Assembly: GCF_029873255.1 (NCBI RefSeq)
Contig: NZ_CP123622.1
Location: 806,501-870,500, forward strand
DNA length: 64,000 nucleotides
Reading direction: 5' to 3'
DNA from: Pigmentibacter sp. JX0631
GTDB taxonomy: Bacteria; Bdellovibrionota_B; Oligoflexia; Silvanigrellales; Silvanigrellaceae
The translations under genes and the position numbers were made by a program. Numbering within the stretch: position 1 is the stretch's first letter; each line of letters starts with the position of its first letter. Below the pieces are notes generated by a model that was not told where the DNA came from, searched no databases, and saw only the letters and a list, made by a program, of their open reading frames with translations. Below are positions 30,560 to 39,169 of this stretch, piece by piece.

Positions 30560-32572
30560 ATGTTTAAAGAAAATGGATTTTTAATTGAAGAAAATTTATT
30601 TTTTCAAAATAAATGTGATGAAATTGTTGAAAATATGAAAACTTATTTAAAAGAAAAATATAGCAATATGTCTGTCCTATTTCATGCAGATTTAATTGTT
30701 CCAGAAATTTCAGAAATGTTGCACGATCATAAATTAACAACTATAATTAATGAAGTAATGCAAAATACATCAATTCTAGTTTCTTCGGGATATTATGCAA
30801 AAGGCTCAGAGACTAGTACTCATTATGAATCAATAAGACTTTCTAGCTTACCCAGTAATAAACTTATTGGAGTTTGGATTGCCCTAGATGATATATTACC
30901 TACTAATGGCCCATTTTTTTATTTTCCAAAATCCCATATTAAAAATTATTTAATGTTGCATGAAAGAATAAATATTTACAATAAAGAAAAAGAAAGTGTA
31001 AATAATTTTATTGACTCTCAAATTGAAGAAGATATTTCTGATTTTAATCTGAAAGATAAAATTAGGAAAATATTTTTAGCGAAGAAAGGGGATGTATTTA
31101 TTTCTGATGGCAATTTATTGCATGGAGGTCATCAAATATTTAATTATAAATTGGAAAGACCTTCACTTGTTGGCTACTATTTGCCAAAAAACGAAAATAA
31201 ATATTTTTATCCAGATTACTTGGACACAAAAAAAGAACGAACTTCAGCTTCACCTAGAGAAGATATAACTCCATTTGCTATATTTAAAAACAAAAATAAA
31301 AATGAAGCTCAAACACTAACTCCTGAAAGAGTATTTTCAACCGAAAATGCTATTGAAAATGTTTACAATTTCCTCAAAAAAAATAATTTTAAATTAGAAC
31401 TCAATTCTGTTGGTAATGATATAGTCTCCTATGAATCAATTCTTTACCATGATAAATACAAAGTAATTGAAGGATATGGTAAAGGACTTACTCAAAAACA
31501 ATCTATGGCAAGTTCTTTATTTGAAGCTATAGAACATATTATTTGTCGGGGAGATTTAATGGATACTTCAAATACCATTAATGTCTCTATTGAGGATGCT
31601 TTAAAAAACTATAATTGTTTTCCACTTAACACTTTAGAGAAAAATATTAAAAATAAACAACCCATTCTTTGGGATATTTTTGATGGAATAAATACAAGTG
31701 AGAAATTGATTGTACCAAGTTTTATTGTAGATTCATCAGGCGGTAGTCGCTCAATGCAAAGTAATTACCCTTATCATGAATTAGAAGGAGCTTACTCAAA
31801 CTCAGGTACTGCAACAGGTTCAACTTTTGATGAAGCGCTTTTACATTCTCTTAACGAGTTAATTGAGCGCGATGCTCATTCTCTTCTACTACTTGAAACT
31901 TTTTGCAGAAAAGTTCCAAAAAATTTAAGAATTATAGATAAAAAAACGATACCTGAGCAACAACTAGATCTCTTGATGAGATGTGAAGATGAAATTGGTG
32001 CAGAAATAAAATTGCTAAACATAACAACAAATTTAAATATTCCATGTATATTATCTTTTTCTGAGAATATGGGGTTATTACAATACCCATTTATTGGATG
32101 CGGCTGCTCTCCAAGTGCAACTTATGCTTTAGAAAGATCTATATTAGAAACAGTGCAAACATATCATGCTTACATTAGAAACCCAGAAGAATATGTAAAT
32201 TATATAAAAAATTCTGAAAATCAATTTAAAGAATTTCCTAAACTAAAAGAATGCGTAAAAGAAAAATATCATGAAATTATTAAAAAAGGATATTTTACAA
32301 CATCAAATTTCAGAGAATTAAATGATTTATCCAAAAATTTATTTAATATTACTGAAAATATTAATGACTTTTCAGTTAATCATTTATTAAAAAATATTAT
32401 CCAAATATTAAGCAATAATAAAATGAATGTATATGTTAAAACACTTTTTCATAATGAAATTCATAATTTATTTTGTGTAAAGAGTATAGTTAGAGAACTT
32501 GAAATTTTTAATCTTGTTACTTCAGGTCTTTTTCCACTACCAGGAGTTAGAGGTGAGTTAGCACTAAATTAA
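30560..32572 (+). CDS. PhyH-type 2-oxoglutarate oxygenase fused to YcaO
   Basis: 670 aa. Residues 1-215 look like a phytanoyl-CoA-dioxygenase-type Fe(II)/2-oxoglutarate oxygenase: HYE (His88, Glu90), LLHGG (His188) and Arg200 fit the iron- and 2-oxoglutarate-binding positions, with Glu in place of the usual Asp. Residues about 255-670 are a YcaO domain with the ATP/Mg motif SLFEAIE (319-325), NELIERD (432-438) and ERSILETVQ. YcaO enzymes use ATP to cyclise or thioamidate peptide backbones. No E1-like/ocin-ThiF, dehydrogenase or TfuA partner is adjacent. The C-terminus, PLPGVRGEL, lacks the multi-proline tail of azoline synthetases. Start ATG after GGAG. Confidence 0.85.
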   Translation: MFKENGFLIEENLFFQNKCDEIVENMKTYLKEKYSNMSVLFHADLIVPEISEMLHDHKLTTIINEVMQNTSILVSSGYYAKGSETSTHYESIRLSSLPSNKLIGVWIALDDILPTNGPFFYFPKSHIKNYLMLHERINIYNKEKESVNNFIDSQIEEDISDFNLKDKIRKIFLAKKGDVFISDGNLLHGGHQIFNYKLERPSLVGYYLPKNENKYFYPDYLDTKKERTSASPREDITPFAIFKNKNKNEAQTLTPERVFSTENAIENVYNFLKKNNFKLELNSVGNDIVSYESILYHDKYKVIEGYGKGLTQKQSMASSLFEAIEHIICRGDLMDTSNTINVSIEDALKNYNCFPLNTLEKNIKNKQPILWDIFDGINTSEKLIVPSFIVDSSGGSRSMQSNYPYHELEGAYSNSGTATGSTFDEALLHSLNELIERDAHSLLLLETFCRKVPKNLRIIDKKTIPEQQLDLLMRCEDEIGAEIKLLNITTNLNIPCILSFSENMGLLQYPFIGCGCSPSATYALERSILETVQTYHAYIRNPEEYVNYIKNSENQFKEFPKLKECVKEKYHEIIKKGYFTTSNFRELNDLSKNLFNITENINDFSVNHLLKNIIQILSNNKMNVYVKTLFHNEIHNLFCVKSIVRELEIFNLVTSGLFPLPGVRGELALN

Positions 32573-32612: not shown

Positions 32613-33038
32613 TTATTTTGGCTTCACTTTTTCTTTAACTGCTATTGAGGAATCAGATTTTTCAAGTTTTTCTAATTTTAATTTTCCATCAATTTCATTG
32701 ACAACAAGTGCTATGGACTCACCCCAATCGGTTTTAAATGCGTCAAACTCTGCTGGAAGTTTAGTTTTATTTTTTGCCTGACATTTCCAAGATCCAGCAT
32801 TAAGCCATAATCCATCATTATAATAATTATCGCCCCAATCAAAATTTTCGGTTTTACTAGGAGCAATTGATTTTGTTGACATTGAAATTTGCATTTCTGA
32901 ATCTGCTAATTCACATTTTAAAGCTATATTTTCTTTCGCATTATTCTTAATATTCCATTTAGTAGAAAATTCTGATGAAAAAGCAGAAGATTGAATGGCT
33001 AATAATCCGATACATGAAAAAGTTAACAGTAATTTCAT
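32613..33038 (-). CDS. Secreted protein of unknown function
   Basis: 141 aa with a signal peptide (MKLLLTFSCIGLLAIQSSAFS). The mature part is small, with WNIKNNAKENIALKCEL and GSWKCQAKNKTK, giving two cysteines that could form one disulfide, and a beta-rich look. It ends lysine-rich. I recognise no family. ATG has AAAGGAG upstream. It is the last minus-strand gene after the SPFH operon, with a 39-bp gap, but its own start site suggests separate translation. Confidence 0.6.
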   Translation of the reverse strand: MKLLLTFSCIGLLAIQSSAFSSEFSTKWNIKNNAKENIALKCELADSEMQISMSTKSIAPSKTENFDWGDNYYNDGLWLNAGSWKCQAKNKTKLPAEFDAFKTDWGESIALVVNEIDGKLKLEKLEKSDSSIAVKEKVKPK

Positions 33039-33077: not shown

Positions 33078-34022
33078 CTAGCAATTGGATAAATGTTGCA
33101 AATTTGAGGGTGAGAGTTCAGAAACTTTGGGACCATTGACATATGTATTATCATCAAACGATGTGACCATTGTCATTGCCGAATCTATTGAAGTCAATTC
33201 TGAAGTGTCAAAACCTTGAAAAACAATGCTTCTATGCGGTTTTTGAAGAGACAATTGATATAGTTTTTTATATCCTTCAAAAATTTCTCGATTTCTAACT
33301 AAATTTTGGTAGGCTTCGCTTACACTTAAACTATATTGACCTTTAGCTTCAGCAACTAATTCAGAAATTTTTTCCGCAGTTTGTGCTTCAAGTAGCTGGA
33401 CAGCTAATTTTCCGTTTTCTTCTATGTCGGCTTTAGTTTTTTCTAATTGCGCTGAAACCGTATCAAATAATTGTTTAGAAACTTCTGTAAGTAAACTTAT
33501 TCTACTTAAAAAAGCTGTTTCTAAATGAATTCCCCATTTTTCTAATCTATTTTTAATTTCTTTTTTTAATATATTGTTAACTAAATCTCTATTTTCCAAG
33601 ACGTATTTAAATTCAAAAGTTCCTAAAATTGTAGTTGTCATACTAATAACCGTACTATGCATAAATTTTTCTACATTTTCAATTTGAAAAGCAGCCATAG
33701 TAGGGGAAAATATTTTAAATTCATAAAATAAATCAACAATTATTGTAGTACCTCTTTGATCATTAACATGAATTTCTTCAATACATCTAAAGTCTTTTTT
33801 CAAAGAAACTGTAATAAATTTTACCCAGGGAAATATTTTATCAAATTGAAAATGTAACCCTGGCTTTTCAATTACTTTAATAAATTTCCCAAATTTGCAT
33901 AGTAATATTTGAGTTTCATTTTCAACTTGAAGAGTGATATTTCTAAAAATAAAAACAATAAATGGTATAACTAAACAACCAGCTATAATTCCTATTACAT
34001 AGTTTAATGAATTTATATTCAT
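33078..34022 (-). CDS. SPFH/band-7 membrane protein (second of pair)
   Basis: 314 aa. An N-terminal membrane helix (about 8-28) precedes a band-7 domain (ENETQILLCKFGKFIKVIEKPGLHF, then KFIMHSTVIS-like segment) and a long alanine/glutamate-rich coiled coil (about 190-240). Such HflC/flotillin-like proteins form ring assemblies that organise membrane proteins. It overlaps the upstream SPFH gene by four bases and is therefore a likely hetero-oligomer partner. Third gene of an operon led by the SulP-carbonic anhydrase. Confidence 0.8.
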   Translation of the reverse strand: MNINSLNYVIGIIAGCLVIPFIVFIFRNITLQVENETQILLCKFGKFIKVIEKPGLHFQFDKIFPWVKFITVSLKKDFRCIEEIHVNDQRGTTIIVDLFYEFKIFSPTMAAFQIENVEKFMHSTVISMTTTILGTFEFKYVLENRDLVNNILKKEIKNRLEKWGIHLETAFLSRISLLTEVSKQLFDTVSAQLEKTKADIEENGKLAVQLLEAQTAEKISELVAEAKGQYSLSVSEAYQNLVRNREIFEGYKKLYQLSLQKPHRSIVFQGFDTSELTSIDSAMTMVTSFDDNTYVNGPKVSELSPSNLQHLSNC

Positions 34023-34903
34023 TTTAACCTCTTTACGTAAGATAATTTTGCTTCAGAATATACTTCGATTTCTCTTCTTTGGATATATTCTTGAAGAGTT
34101 CCTACATCACTTAACTTTTCAAGAATTTTTGCTTGAGTTAAAATTTCTGCTTTCACAGATTTTGCTTTAGACTTTGCAATTTCAATCCCTTTTTTCGCTG
34201 CAAGCAATTTCTGCTCACATTCTGCTTCTTTTAAAGCAAAGTTTTTTTCAGCTTCCGTTTGAGCATGAATGACAGCATTTAATGCTTGAGCAAGTTCTTC
34301 TGGAGGTAATATGTCGATAATATCGATTCCTTCAAATTGAAACCCATAATGTTCCCGAAATTTATCACTGCACAACTCATTTATTTGTAAATTTAATTTA
34401 CTTCGTTCAGTTCTTAAAATTGCATATGATCCTTTTATTAATTGCTTATCTTTATCAGATGATAACATTTTCCCATTACTAAATTTACCAATTTCTTGGT
34501 GCATTAACCCATTAAAAAAATTTTTTATATGCTCTTTGGGTTTCTCCATAGAAAATAGAATTGAGTAAATATTATTTAGCAAAGGAGTGTATCTTAGTTT
34601 TGCTTCTATTTTTAAAAGAGTTCCGTCTGTCGTCATAAGCATTGTTGCTGTTTCAGACATTGTTAAATCTAAAATTTGTTCCTTAATTGAAATTTTCTTT
34701 ACTTTTTCCCAAGGAAATTTAAAATGAAGTCCTGAGTTATAAATTTTTAAGTTAAAATTTGAAGTATCATTTGATTTTGCTTTTCCAAAAGAAATAATAG
34801 TAGCTATATGACCTTCTTGAACCTGAAAAAAAATCTTTCTTAATGTAAAAATTAGATAAACTAAAAACCCTAAAATAAAACCTAAAAAAATTTGCTCAAT
34901 CAT
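34019..34903 (-). CDS. SPFH/band-7 membrane protein (first of pair)
   Basis: 294 aa. N-terminal helix (about 5-22), band-7 domain (EGHIATIISFGKA, NSGLHFKFPWEKVKKISIKEQILDL) and a coiled-coil tail (EAECEQKLLAAKKGIEIAKSKAKS). The paired, overlapping arrangement is like HflK/HflC, but no FtsH gene is present. It begins 12 bp after the SulP-carbonic anhydrase gene, which suggests a scaffold for that transporter. Confidence 0.8.
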   Translation of the reverse strand: MIEQIFLGFILGFLVYLIFTLRKIFFQVQEGHIATIISFGKAKSNDTSNFNLKIYNSGLHFKFPWEKVKKISIKEQILDLTMSETATMLMTTDGTLLKIEAKLRYTPLLNNIYSILFSMEKPKEHIKNFFNGLMHQEIGKFSNGKMLSSDKDKQLIKGSYAILRTERSKLNLQINELCSDKFREHYGFQFEGIDIIDILPPEELAQALNAVIHAQTEAEKNFALKEAECEQKLLAAKKGIEIAKSKAKSVKAEILTQAKILEKLSDVGTLQEYIQRREIEVYSEAKLSYVKRLK

Positions 34904-34915
34904 TAATTACTCCAT

Positions 34916-36973
34916 TTAAAATTTATCACTTTGTAAATTTAATTTTGAACCTATATTTAGTAAATTTGTTTTGGAATCTGAAAATGTTGTATTGTGTTTT
35001 TTATACGCCTTTACTAGTCCTTTATTTACTTCAACAACATCATCATTAAAATGCAAATGAGCATCAGTCACTAATGGAAGTAACTCAACTTTATCAATAG
35101 AATCTATCACACTTCCGTGAGGGACATATTTTCCAGAAGGTATTTCGACACCAACTACGATTGCGCCTATTCCAATGTAACAATGAGAACCAATAATAGA
35201 ATCATGGACTATAGCTTGAAATCCAATAAATGAATTGTTTCCAATGTAACAAGGTCCATGAACAAGAGCTTGGTGAGCAACAGAAACGTTTTCACCTATA
35301 TAAACAGCCCAATCATCTTCACCAACTGTTACCCATTTTTCTTTTAAAGCATGTATCACTACACCATCTTGGATATTAGAATAATTTCCAATATAAAAAG
35401 GCGTGCCTTCATCTGCTCGAATAGAACTTTCTGCGGCAATATGTACTTGTTCCCCTAAAATTACTTTACCTATAATAGAAGCTTTATGATGAACGAATGA
35501 TGAAGCAGCAAAAGAAGCTTTATCACGAATTTGTTCAAACCAACTATTTTTTTCTTTTTCGAGATTAATATGTTTCTTTTTTAAAAGATTTTCTTTTTTA
35601 TCAATTGTATCTATAAGTGCTCTGATTTTTTTTGATTTTGCTTGTTTATTTTTATCCGCTAATTTCTCATCAGTAGTTGTTTTCTCAAAAAGACGATTTA
35701 AAAAGTAAATGCATATACCTAAAAATAATCCAAGCATTAAATGTCCAGTAGTTGTTCCGATAGCCGTTACTAAAAAAGACAATGCTTGGAATTTACTTTC
35801 CTTCATTAAATGAAAAAGACTTTTAAATTCAACTAAACGAAAACCTACGACGCATAGTAAACCAGACAAAGCTGCCAATGGAATTGCTTCCATAATTTGA
35901 CTAAAATAAAGGATTGAAGCAATTAGTAAAATTGCATGCAAAAATGCTGACAATCTTGTTTTCGCTCCGCTTTGAACATTCACAGTTGAACGAACTATCA
36001 CACCAGAAACAGGCATGCCGCCAACTAAACCAGAACCTAAATTCCCAATTCCCTGCCCTAATAATTCTAAATTTGAATTATGTGGTTTTTTAAAATTAGT
36101 CATTCTATCTATTGCTTGCGCTGACAATAATGATTCAACTGAGGCTAAAAAAGCTAAAGGAATTGTTGCAAAAAATAAATTTAATAGTTTATCAGAAGCC
36201 ACCCAAGGAAAACTAGGAAAAGGAAGAGAATTTGGAATTGCACCAACTCTCTCTATACTCCAATTCAAATGTGCAGATAGGGCAGTGACAATTACAATTG
36301 CAATAAAAGAGGCTGGTAGTCTTTTAAATGATTTACAAGCAATAACAAGGAATGCAACAAATAATCCACAAATCACTGCAAACCATGAAACTTCATGCAG
36401 CCATCTATAATCATCAAAGCTTTTAAGAATGTGCAGAATGGAATAGTCAAAACCAAATAACTGAGGAATTTGTGAATCTAGTAATTTAATTCCAACACCA
36501 GTTGTAAAACCAGCTAACACAGCTTCAGGGACAAATTTAATAAATTTTCCAGCTGAAATAAAACTTAAAAGAATTTGAAAGCAGCCAATAAGTAAACAGG
36601 AAAAGCAAACACCTATTGGCCCATAATCTTTTGTGATTGCCAATACCATTACATTTAAAGCCGCAGCTGGACCTGTAACTTGTAAACGAGCTCCGCCAAA
36701 TATTGCAGCGAGCCCCCCGCCAATTGCTCCAGCTAACAAACCGGAACTAGCAGGAAGTCCACAAGCAACGGCAAGGGCAATATTAAGCGGTAATGCAACT
36801 GAAGCGACTGTAATTGCGGAAAGAGCATCTTGTAAAAGAGATTTTCCTTGTAAAACTCCAAGCCAATCTTTACTTAGTTCTACCGCAAATTCTTTAAAAT
36901 TATTACCATTAATATTTTTTGAATTCTTTAATTTACTATTATCTGATAAATCAAAAATATTTGTTACTTTCAT
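34916..36973 (-). CDS. SulP anion transporter fused to gamma-carbonic anhydrase
   Basis: 685 aa. Residues 30-430 are a SulP/SLC26 transporter (PLNIALAVACGLPASSGLLAG, GPAAALNVMV, GQGIGNLGSGLVGG). A charged linker (430-490) replaces the usual STAS entry, and residues about 495-640 form a left-handed beta-helix of gamma-carbonic-anhydrase type. By alignment to Cam the zinc ligands are His541, His567 and His572; Arg519, Asp521 and Glu522 are kept, while the Glu84 proton-shuttle position is Lys544. A bicarbonate transporter coupled to CO2/HCO3 conversion is the natural reading. Heads an operon with two SPFH genes. Confidence 0.85.
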   Translation of the reverse strand: MKVTNIFDLSDNSKLKNSKNINGNNFKEFAVELSKDWLGVLQGKSLLQDALSAITVASVALPLNIALAVACGLPASSGLLAGAIGGGLAAIFGGARLQVTGPAAALNVMVLAITKDYGPIGVCFSCLLIGCFQILLSFISAGKFIKFVPEAVLAGFTTGVGIKLLDSQIPQLFGFDYSILHILKSFDDYRWLHEVSWFAVICGLFVAFLVIACKSFKRLPASFIAIVIVTALSAHLNWSIERVGAIPNSLPFPSFPWVASDKLLNLFFATIPLAFLASVESLLSAQAIDRMTNFKKPHNSNLELLGQGIGNLGSGLVGGMPVSGVIVRSTVNVQSGAKTRLSAFLHAILLIASILYFSQIMEAIPLAALSGLLCVVGFRLVEFKSLFHLMKESKFQALSFLVTAIGTTTGHLMLGLFLGICIYFLNRLFEKTTTDEKLADKNKQAKSKKIRALIDTIDKKENLLKKKHINLEKEKNSWFEQIRDKASFAASSFVHHKASIIGKVILGEQVHIAAESSIRADEGTPFYIGNYSNIQDGVVIHALKEKWVTVGEDDWAVYIGENVSVAHQALVHGPCYIGNNSFIGFQAIVHDSIIGSHCYIGIGAIVVGVEIPSGKYVPHGSVIDSIDKVELLPLVTDAHLHFNDDVVEVNKGLVKAYKKHNTTFSDSKTNLLNIGSKLNLQSDKF

Positions 36974-37013
36974 TCTCTACCTTCTTATTTGAAAATATAA
37001 AAAATGAATTTTT

Positions 37014-37436
37014 TTATCTCTTAATTAAATTTGAACACCATCTATTATCCCAACAAAGTTTCATATTATTTTCATTTAGTTTTATATTAAAGTTTACTAT
37101 TTCACGCAAGTGAGTCATTTTTACTGCTAGACTTATTGAATATCCTTGTGAATCTTTTGTAAATGATTTAACTTCATATTTTCCTATGACCTGAGCATCA
37201 GTTCTGCTAGAAGATTTAGTACAATGATAGTCATCATAATATTCTAAGTATGATTCTACTCTATTGTTATCTTTAAAAACATAATTATAAGTCCCTTGAA
37301 ATAAACCATCCCCATAACTACTACAACTTGTGCCTCGCCAATCAGTATTATCTAATAGAGAAGAAACAGTAGGAAGTGAAAAAGAATTTTGCTGCAAACA
37401 GACTAGAGTACTAGCGAGAAATATTTTTTTTAGCAT
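37014..37436 (-). CDS. Secreted protein of unknown function
   Basis: 140 aa with a signal peptide (KKIFLASTLVCLQQNSFS). Mature part contains TDWRGTSCSSYGDGLFQGTYNYVFKDNN and four cysteines in all (two pairs), reminiscent of small lipocalin-like or META-type secreted proteins, though no family is recognised. ATG follows GAGGTAG. It precedes the SulP gene on the same strand by 40 bp and could be the first gene of that operon. Confidence 0.6.
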   Translation of the reverse strand: MLKKIFLASTLVCLQQNSFSLPTVSSLLDNTDWRGTSCSSYGDGLFQGTYNYVFKDNNRVESYLEYYDDYHCTKSSSRTDAQVIGKYEVKSFTKDSQGYSISLAVKMTHLREIVNFNIKLNENNMKLCWDNRWCSNLIKR

Positions 37437-37644
37437 TTTCTACCTCATTTAAATATATTATTATATGTTAATGTAATAATAATTTTTAAATTTAAAAATG
37501 CAAGTTATTTTTATTGCAAAACTATTTTATATTTTTAAAGATAAATTAAAAATACATAAAGCAACTTTATTGATTCAAAAAAAAATTTACTTGATAAATT
37601 ATTTTTTTTGAATAATAATAGGCGAAAACTTAAAGGAACAAATT

Positions 37645-38298
37645 ATGAAAAACCTGATGCCTGGATTAAGGAAATTTACCGAAAATGTATTCCCAGAACA
37701 AAAAGATCTTTTTGAAACTTTGTCGCAAGGGCAAAAACCACATACGTTGCTAATTACATGTTCAGATTCCAGAATTGATCCTAATTTATTGACACAAACC
37801 CAACCTGGAGAACTATTTGTAATACGCAATGCGGGAAATATTATACCTCCTTATGGAGCTTCAGGCGGAGGAGAAGAAGCCTCGATAGAATTTGCAATTG
37901 ATGGCTTAAAGATTAGCAATATCGTAATTTGCGGACACTCTCACTGCGGCGCCATGGCAGCACTCATGGATAAAGTTGATTTAGATAGCCTTCCTTCTGT
38001 AAAACATTGGCTAAGACATGCACAAACAACCAAAAAAAGAGTATTAGCATGCAGCAAGAATAATGATTTTAATTTAATGGATGTAATTGAAGAAAATATA
38101 TTGACTCAAACTGATAATCTAAAAACACATCCATCTGTATCATGCGCTCTAAGACAAAATAAAATTAGACTTTATGGTTGGGTATATCAATTTGAAACTG
38201 GTGAAGTAATGATATATGATCACATGCAGAAAAGTTTTGTAAAATCTGTCGCAGTAAAGGAAGAGGTTCTAAATGAACCAAGTCGATTTGAATTATGA
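37645..38298 (+). CDS. Beta-class carbonic anhydrase
   Basis: 217 aa. Zinc ligands are visible: Cys39 in TCSDSR with the Asp41-Arg43 dyad, His98 and Cys101 in CGHSHCGAM. Interconverts CO2 and bicarbonate in the cytoplasm. AAAGGA precedes the ATG. The 3' end overlaps the bestrophin gene by 26 bp, so translation is coupled, and the divergent SulP-gamma-carbonic-anhydrase operon lies 650 bp away. I infer a joint role in bicarbonate supply or pH control. Confidence 0.95.
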   Translation: MKNLMPGLRKFTENVFPEQKDLFETLSQGQKPHTLLITCSDSRIDPNLLTQTQPGELFVIRNAGNIIPPYGASGGGEEASIEFAIDGLKISNIVICGHSHCGAMAALMDKVDLDSLPSVKHWLRHAQTTKKRVLACSKNNDFNLMDVIEENILTQTDNLKTHPSVSCALRQNKIRLYGWVYQFETGEVMIYDHMQKSFVKSVAVKEEVLNEPSRFEL

Positions 38299-39169
38299 AA
38301 AGTATTACTTCATAAATCAACATGAAAAAAAATCATTTTTTAGAACTGCTGTAACATGGAATGGTTCTGTTACACCAGTTGTAATTCATAGAGTCCTTTT
38401 CTTTATGTTGTATGCATATATTGCTAGTTCGCTCGAAAAAATTTACCCCATATCAACTTTTCCTATAAGCCCATTCCAATACACTGGTTTTGCACTTGGA
38501 GTGCTTTTAGTTTTAAGACTTAATGCTGGACTAGAGCGCTGGTGGGAAGCTAGAAAATTATGGGGAAACATTGTTAATCAATCAAGAAATTTGTCGATAA
38601 TGGTAAAAGTTCATTGTAAAAATGATGAAGAAAAAAAGAAAATATTAAAATACCTTGCAGCTTGGCCGTACGTGATCATGAATAGTTTAAGGAATGACTT
38701 CAGCACAACTAAAATAAATAAGTTTTTAACTCAAGATGATTTAGAACAAATGAATAATCATCCTCATAAACCAACATTTATTGCTATTAAGTTAGATGAA
38801 TTATTTCAAAAATATTTATGCTCTGAAATAAATTCATACGTATTTCATCTTTTACAAAATGAACGTTTATTATTACTTAATTCAGTTGGCGCATGTGAAA
38901 GAATTGCATCGACACCAATTCCATTTGTTTTGGCAATTAAAATAAGAAGATTTATATTAATGTTTATTATATTGTTACCTTTTTGTATGAATGACAAGAC
39001 AAATATTTATTCCGCAATTATTGTTGGTCTCGTTTCATACCCTCTACTTTCGTTAGATGAAATAGGGGTACATTTGCAAAATCCTTTTTCATTGAAAAGT
39101 TTGAGTTGTCTTCCATTAGAAAATATTTGTGATAAAATTAGTGCAAATATTTCGGAAAATAGTTTTTGA
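38273..39169 (+). CDS. Bestrophin-family anion channel
   Basis: 298 aa, four predicted helices. The family signature is WNGSVTPVVIHRVLFFMLYA and LRLNAGLERWWEARKLWGNIVNQSRNL, then RFILMFIILLPF. Bacterial bestrophins form pentameric channels; some relatives carry chloride or bicarbonate. Overlap with the carbonic anhydrase gene points to bicarbonate as a likely ion here. The ATG lies after GAGG within the last codons of the anhydrase gene. Confidence 0.88.
   Translation: MNQVDLNYEKYYFINQHEKKSFFRTAVTWNGSVTPVVIHRVLFFMLYAYIASSLEKIYPISTFPISPFQYTGFALGVLLVLRLNAGLERWWEARKLWGNIVNQSRNLSIMVKVHCKNDEEKKKILKYLAAWPYVIMNSLRNDFSTTKINKFLTQDDLEQMNNHPHKPTFIAIKLDELFQKYLCSEINSYVFHLLQNERLLLLNSVGACERIASTPIPFVLAIKIRRFILMFIILLPFCMNDKTNIYSAIIVGLVSYPLLSLDEIGVHLQNPFSLKSLSCLPLENICDKISANISENSF

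Follow-up and report, generated by a model that had tools for sequence, protein, structure and literature searches.

A SulP–gamma-carbonic anhydrase fusion accompanied by two SPFH proteins in Pigmentibacter sp. JX0631 and other heterotrophic bacteria

The window analyzed here is a stretch of 64,000 nucleotides from Pigmentibacter sp. JX0631, whose genome is a single 3.65-Mb contig (NZ_CP123622.1, positions 806,501 to 870,500). In the window, a SulP transporter fused to a gamma-class carbonic anhydrase (CA) is followed at short spacing on the minus strand by two genes for SPFH proteins, SPFH-A and then SPFH-B, whose reading frames overlap by 4 bases. A beta-class CA and a bestrophin-type channel, with frames overlapping by 26 bases, run divergently from these three genes (Table 1). 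A preliminary description of the stretch had named all of these genes and assigned the five, lying within 6 kb, to one function, namely bicarbonate capture, pH homeostasis, or the feeding of carboxylases. Domain matches confirmed every gene in its place (Sulfate_transp, gamma-CA, Band_7, Pro_CA, and Bestrophin_2), and a CO2/bicarbonate theme has good support in either half of the locus, but a single function for all five does not. The locus consists of two independent units, a cassette of the fusion with SPFH-A and SPFH-B and a beta-CA/bestrophin pair, because each is conserved on its own elsewhere. The SPFH proteins, which the preliminary description mentioned without building on them, are the most informative part of the locus.

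The cassette is conserved far beyond chance in its content and order. All 12 fusion-bearing genomes of the class have SPFH-A and SPFH-B together with the fusion. A scan of the contigs in our collection returned at least 16 fusion loci (13 of which were new) from genomes of Bdellovibrionota, Oligoflexia, and Myxococcota; among the matches listed, SPFH-A and then SPFH-B lay downstream on the same strand at every fusion locus, and the pair was present at none of 64 loci without the fusion, which were mostly lone gamma-CA genes. Whole-genome searches added nine more fusions. At least 34 distinct fusions therefore exist, and all 34 that we found are followed by SPFH-A and SPFH-B in the same order and on the same strand. 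The carriers among the matches listed belong to the Silvanigrellaceae/Oligoflexia, Bdellovibrionota, and Myxococcota, and further cassettes in other phyla are possible. The closest named relative among these matches is Fluviispira multicolorata (L057), with a fusion 65% identical to that of the window.

The association also holds in reverse. When the cassette-type SPFH-B was searched for across 630 genomes (58, 282, and 290 in three sets), the subfamily was detected in every one of the 27 fusion genomes and in three more, two of which (G035 and G404) carry a SulP stub run into an SPFH remnant and one of which (G317) carries a fragment at a contig edge. Apart from that fragment, the cassette SPFH subfamily never occurred without a trace of SulP, and within the class the association between the fusion and SPFH-B is strong (Fisher p=1.5e-11). 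The SPFH pair is an obligate partner of the fusion. In the two remnants (L044:8670-9830 in G035 and L227:7835-8883 in G404), SulP pieces continue directly into SPFH remnants and the anhydrase is missing, which may reflect either a deletion or an assembly error or collapse of the cassette. Separately, a Methanosarcinales contig end (L124:7815-9125) holds a 437-amino-acid (aa) open frame that scored 322 bits with the fusion model and may be a tandem gamma-CA. A role in phage defense was considered and rejected, as PADLOC returned no match.

Table 1. Genes of the cassette, the divergent pair, and the adjoining small open reading frames (ORFs); coordinates are positions in the window
Feature	Coordinates	Strand	Description
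SulP–gamma-CA fusion	34916..36973	minus	685 aa, single ORF
SPFH-A	34019..34903	minus	294 aa; N-terminal transmembrane helix, SPFH domain, coiled coil
SPFH-B	33078..34022	minus	314 aa; N-terminal transmembrane helix, SPFH domain, coiled coil
Small ORF, apparently secreted	37014..37436	minus	140 aa; signal peptide judged by eye
Small ORF, apparently secreted	32613..33038	minus	141 aa; signal peptide judged by eye
Beta-CA	37645..38298	plus	Pro_CA 157 bits, 4.3e-46
Bestrophin-type channel	38273..39169	plus	Bestrophin_2 219 bits, 9.9e-65

Although the order of the cassette is fixed, its transporter is not. A different SulP is present at four loci (L060, L061 [= G069], G186, and G220, the last two assigned to this second type by profile scores). 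The SulP of L060 is only 26 to 29% identical to the usual type, whereas its gamma-CA is 63 to 74% identical to the others and its SPFH proteins are mostly 36 to 57% identical to those of other cassettes. Since SulP differs at these loci while the anhydrase and SPFH proteins stay, the constant core is the anhydrase with the SPFH pair, to which exchangeable transporters are fitted. Relatives of the second SulP type without an anhydrase occur in the same phylum (L195 and L196). One Myxococcales metagenome-assembled genome (G067) contains two cassettes, representing both SulP types (L058 and L060). Unfused gamma-CA genes also lie beside SulP genes in Thiobacillus-type bacteria (L062-L070, L075, L077, L081, L107, and L114, among the matches listed), often close to another SulP and with no SPFH genes.

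The fusion comprises a SulP transmembrane (TM) domain at about residues 44 to 430, a disordered linker at about 440 to 483, and a gamma-CA domain at about 486 to 660. Sulfate_transp (PF00916) matched residues 46 to 403 with 208 bits against a cutoff of 23 (1.9e-61), and the anhydrase domain scored 193 bits with the CcmM model and 172 bits with the Cam-type model. In an AlphaFold2 model with a mean predicted local distance difference test (pLDDT) score of 77, falling below 50 in the linker, the TM domain was closest in Foldseek to BicA (6ki1, TMt 0.85), with SLC26Dg and prestin also matching, and the anhydrase domain matched Cam (1qrm, root mean square deviation of 1.2). No STAS domain was detected in the fusion by Pfam, by NCBIfam, or in the model, and the gamma-CA sits at the C terminus. 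Some known SulP proteins also do without STAS (PMC6458275). The anhydrase domain is 41% identical to Cam-type structures and retains the left-handed beta-helix with the three histidine metal ligands of the Cam class. The zinc ligands H541, H567, and H572 are invariant across the aligned fusions, as are the Cam site residues R519, D521, E522, N533, Q535, D536, and N643. The position of the Cam proton shuttle, Glu84, is occupied by an invariant Lys544 in the fusions and by Gln in the aligned CcmM chain.

What the SulP part carries is less directly readable. BicA is its best match both in fold and in sequence among PDB entries, but the NCBIfam BicA score of 175 bits is well below the cutoff of 880, and the best-scoring model is that of the C4-dicarboxylate transporter DauA, at 215.8 bits, likewise below any equivalog cutoff. 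The residue that we take to be the sodium-site aspartate of BicA aligned to Glu280 of the fusion. Because this aspartate is replaced and no equivalog cutoff is reached, bicarbonate is a likely rather than a proven substrate. The SulP part could instead import another anion, such as sulfate, a dicarboxylate, or chloride, with the anhydrase supplying bicarbonate from respiratory CO2 as the counter-ion, which would make the fusion an anion-for-bicarbonate exchanger. The score to DauA, Glu280, and the presence of the same anhydrase and SPFH module on two different SulP types would all fit such an exchanger, as would the heterotrophic character of the carriers and the Cl-/HCO3- exchange known in SLC26 relatives, whereas the closeness to BicA in fold and sequence points the other way, although it falls short of an equivalog assignment. 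We regard the exchanger as a serious but rather unlikely alternative.

Both SPFH proteins matched Band_7 (PF01145), with 59 bits for SPFH-A and 62 bits for SPFH-B, and reached only 35 to 42 bits with the NCBIfam HflK and HflC models, for which the cutoffs are 134 to 159. The model of SPFH-B (pLDDT 81) consists of a TM helix, an SPFH domain, and a long coiled coil, and its best Foldseek match is human stomatin (9z7u, E 1.5e-15), with prohibitin also close. In a tree with long branches, SPFH-A and SPFH-B formed two supported clades apart from Escherichia coli HflK, HflC, and QmcA, with SPFH-B in a clade of its own at 100/100 support. Genomes of the same phyla also contain a stand-alone, adjacent SPFH pair without the fusion (L179, L182, and L220-L226), again far below the HflK/HflC cutoff. 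Each cassette SPFH protein groups with the corresponding member of this stand-alone pair in a tree whose branches are long, so the two were probably recruited as a unit. The N termini of SPFH-A and SPFH-B mostly lack positive charges, and most of the proteins have Lys or Arg just after the TM helix, whereas the N termini of E. coli HflC and HflK are positive. This charge pattern around the TM helix predicts an N-out/C-in orientation, which would place the SPFH domains on the cytoplasmic side with the anhydrase, opposite to E. coli HflK/HflC.

That the pair is canonical HflKC was rejected on scores and trees, though the branches are long. A looser version of the idea is that the pair acts as an adaptor for quality control or proteolysis of the fusion, as HflK/HflC do with FtsH, and forms no transport compartment. 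HflKC-FtsH is the best-known function of bacterial SPFH proteins (PMC12005517), and both cassette proteins show weak scores to the HflK/HflC models and to HflC and QmcA structures. However, these scores lie far below the cutoffs, the cassette has no protease gene as a recurring neighbor, the predicted topology is the reverse of that of HflKC, and a general adaptor would hardly be dedicated one to one to a single transporter, all of which makes this role improbable.

We consider it slightly more likely than not that the cassette is a CO2/bicarbonate transport metabolon in which the SPFH pair corrals the fused anhydrase. In favor of this are the unbroken pairing with SPFH-A and SPFH-B, the exchange of SulP around a constant anhydrase and SPFH pair, the invariant Cam site residues, the closest folds (BicA, Cam, and stomatin/prohibitin), the predicted orientation of the SPFH proteins, and the unfused gamma-CA genes beside SulP in Thiobacillus-type bacteria. 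We infer both the substrate and the direction of flux: the SulP part would transport bicarbonate across the inner membrane, or swap it for another anion, and the gamma-CA, held on its flexible linker at the putatively cytoplasmic C terminus where STAS usually sits, would interconvert CO2 and bicarbonate at the mouth of the transporter. SulP proteins usually dimerize and gamma-CAs usually form trimers, so the fusion may form higher-order clusters that an SPFH ring would organize. SPFH-A and SPFH-B would build a heteromeric ring or dome on the cytoplasmic side of the membrane, and by analogy the fused anhydrase is probably surrounded there by an SPFH dome or fence. The ring would stabilize or tune the fusion, as stomatin does for anion exchanger 1 (AE1) and for AQP1/UT-B in red cells; stomatin physically binds AE1, stomatin-deficient ghosts have 47% lower bicarbonate permeability (PMC5383999), and a 16-mer stomatin dome encloses AQP1 or UT-B (PMC12407830). 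A more specific proposal, which we hold only tentatively and think less probable than the metabolon in general, is a membrane nanocompartment in which an SPFH-A/SPFH-B dome on the cytoplasmic face would enclose the fusion, CO2 and bicarbonate would be interconverted in a small confined volume at the mouth of the transporter, and the module could be refitted to other SulP transporters.

Several observations weigh against the metabolon. BicA-type sodium coupling is doubtful because Glu280 replaces the aspartate, and with Lys544 in place of Cam Glu84 the rate or pH profile of the anhydrase may differ. SulP proteins as a family carry many different anions, SPFH proteins have further roles in proteostasis and lipid organization, and the structure models are all of single chains. 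In addition, the cassette has no linkage to any other gene of carbon fixation.

The last point bears on what the cassette would be for. No match to the RuBisCO large subunit was found in 16 of the 24 carriers, and the remaining matches were weak (42 to 100 bits), in seven Silvanigrellaceae and in G059. The Silvanigrellaceae matches (G000:C1:2465180-2465905 [L168] and six others, 42 to 61 bits) are probably RuBisCO-like proteins of the type IV or methionine-salvage kind; this type, and that of the partial match in G059, were judged by eye. Given only these matches, carboxysome or RuBisCO feeding was set aside as unlikely. With no evident RuBisCO in the carriers, we favor carboxylase supply, pH control, or anion exchange over carbon fixation, and in these heterotrophs the cassette would probably retain bicarbonate for housekeeping carboxylases and provide pH buffering.

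The beta-CA and bestrophin genes make up a second CO2/bicarbonate unit, independent of the cassette. Among the 12 fusion genomes of the class, it adjoins the cassette only in the window and in G002, the nearest relative, whose fusion is 93% identical. The preliminary description had proposed comparing neighborhoods in relatives, with halves that never co-occur as the outcome that would count against a shared function, and the neighborhoods came out largely that way. The two units are not adjacent in the other 10 cassette carriers of the class, lying about 460 kb apart in G004, and the cassette is conserved without an adjoining beta-CA/bestrophin pair across three phyla. The beta-CA, for its part, is directly upstream of the bestrophin in 10 of the 12 class bestrophin loci with enough flanking sequence, one of these being broken. 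That one, in G006 (L129, about 1199-1523), has a beta-CA that contains stops and lacks pieces, upstream of a bestrophin that is intact, while the cassette elsewhere in the genome is intact. The adjacent, divergent arrangement in the window and G002 does favor a function common to all five genes, as does a suggestive excess of genome sharing within the class, where the bestrophin unit occurs in 9 of 13 carriers of the cassette or its remnant (G035 counted) against 6 of 43 others (Fisher p=3e-4, kinship ignored). Outside the class, however, no clear link between cassette and bestrophin was seen. One island with one function was thus rejected on the neighborhood evidence, and we consider it very unlikely. 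A second beta-CA is encoded elsewhere on the Pigmentibacter genome. We found no paper describing a bacterial bestrophin-anhydrase operon in a search mostly outside the subscription literature.

Two small ORFs, absent from the preliminary description, flank the cassette, and neither has a Pfam or NCBIfam match. The 140-aa ORF lies 40 bases upstream of the fusion, between it and the divergent promoter region, and its homologues adjoin the cassette in G002, G006, and G007; the 141-aa ORF lies downstream of SPFH-B, and five relatives have a homologue of it next to the cassette. Both are genus-level accessories, and the neighborhood comparison revealed no further conserved gene at cassette loci. 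Farther out, an ORF at 30560-32572 on the plus strand combines a phytanoyl-CoA dioxygenase-like domain (PhyH) at its N terminus with a YcaO cyclodehydratase domain, an uncommon combination that may have a role in peptide modification.

The cassette joins two kinds of system known separately, SulP-anhydrase fusions and SPFH corrals. An anhydrase on or beside a SulP proposed as a bicarbonate carrier has been described (Felce and Saier 2004, cited in PMC6458275), and the Acidithiobacillus sulP-can2 clade also lacks STAS (PMC6458275). The cassette differs from this clade in its gamma-class anhydrase and in the two SPFH genes that are always attached. Acidithiobacillus Can2 is a beta-type anhydrase, and the SulP-CA fusions of Felce and Saier (2004) were reportedly mainly beta-class, in contrast to the gamma-class domain fused here. 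BicA, the best structural match of the TM domain, has a STAS domain and a sodium site with Asp, whereas the fusion has no STAS and Glu280 at that site. The anhydrase shares its fold and all metal ligands with Cam and CcmM but is membrane tethered, has Lys for Cam Glu84, and lacks the carboxysome repeats of CcmM. A further parallel is erythrocyte stomatin, an SPFH oligomer acting on membrane transporters that include a bicarbonate exchanger (PMC5383999, PMC12407830), as a putative oligomer in the cassette would do; the erythrocyte system, however, involves unlinked genes, homo-oligomeric stomatin, and an SLC4 transporter, whereas the cassette has one gene cluster, two SPFH genes, and SulP. In bacteria, a membrane protein is corralled by the SPFH assemblies HflK/HflC-FtsH and QmcA/YbbJ, and HflKC is also a two-gene pair, but the cassette proteins score below the equivalog cutoffs, fall in separate clades, and have no recurring protease or NfeD gene beside them. 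A search mostly outside the subscription literature found no paper describing SulP, anhydrase, and SPFH in combination, and this layout in bacteria has apparently not been described before.

The function of most bacterial SPFH proteins is unclear, and the partners of animal stomatins have been hard to pin down. In the cassette, one SPFH pair is tied to one transporter-enzyme fusion in every case found, and because the client is thereby known in advance, the idea that SPFH proteins enclose a transporter becomes testable in a bacterium with three genes. The cassette further extends the SulP-anhydrase concept to a gamma-class anhydrase and places in heterotrophs a putative CO2/bicarbonate device similar to carbon-concentrating components, with neither a carboxysome nor an evident RuBisCO. 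If the nanocompartment proposal is true, the cassette would be an operon-encoded counterpart of the arrangement of transporter, anhydrase, and stomatin in the red cell.

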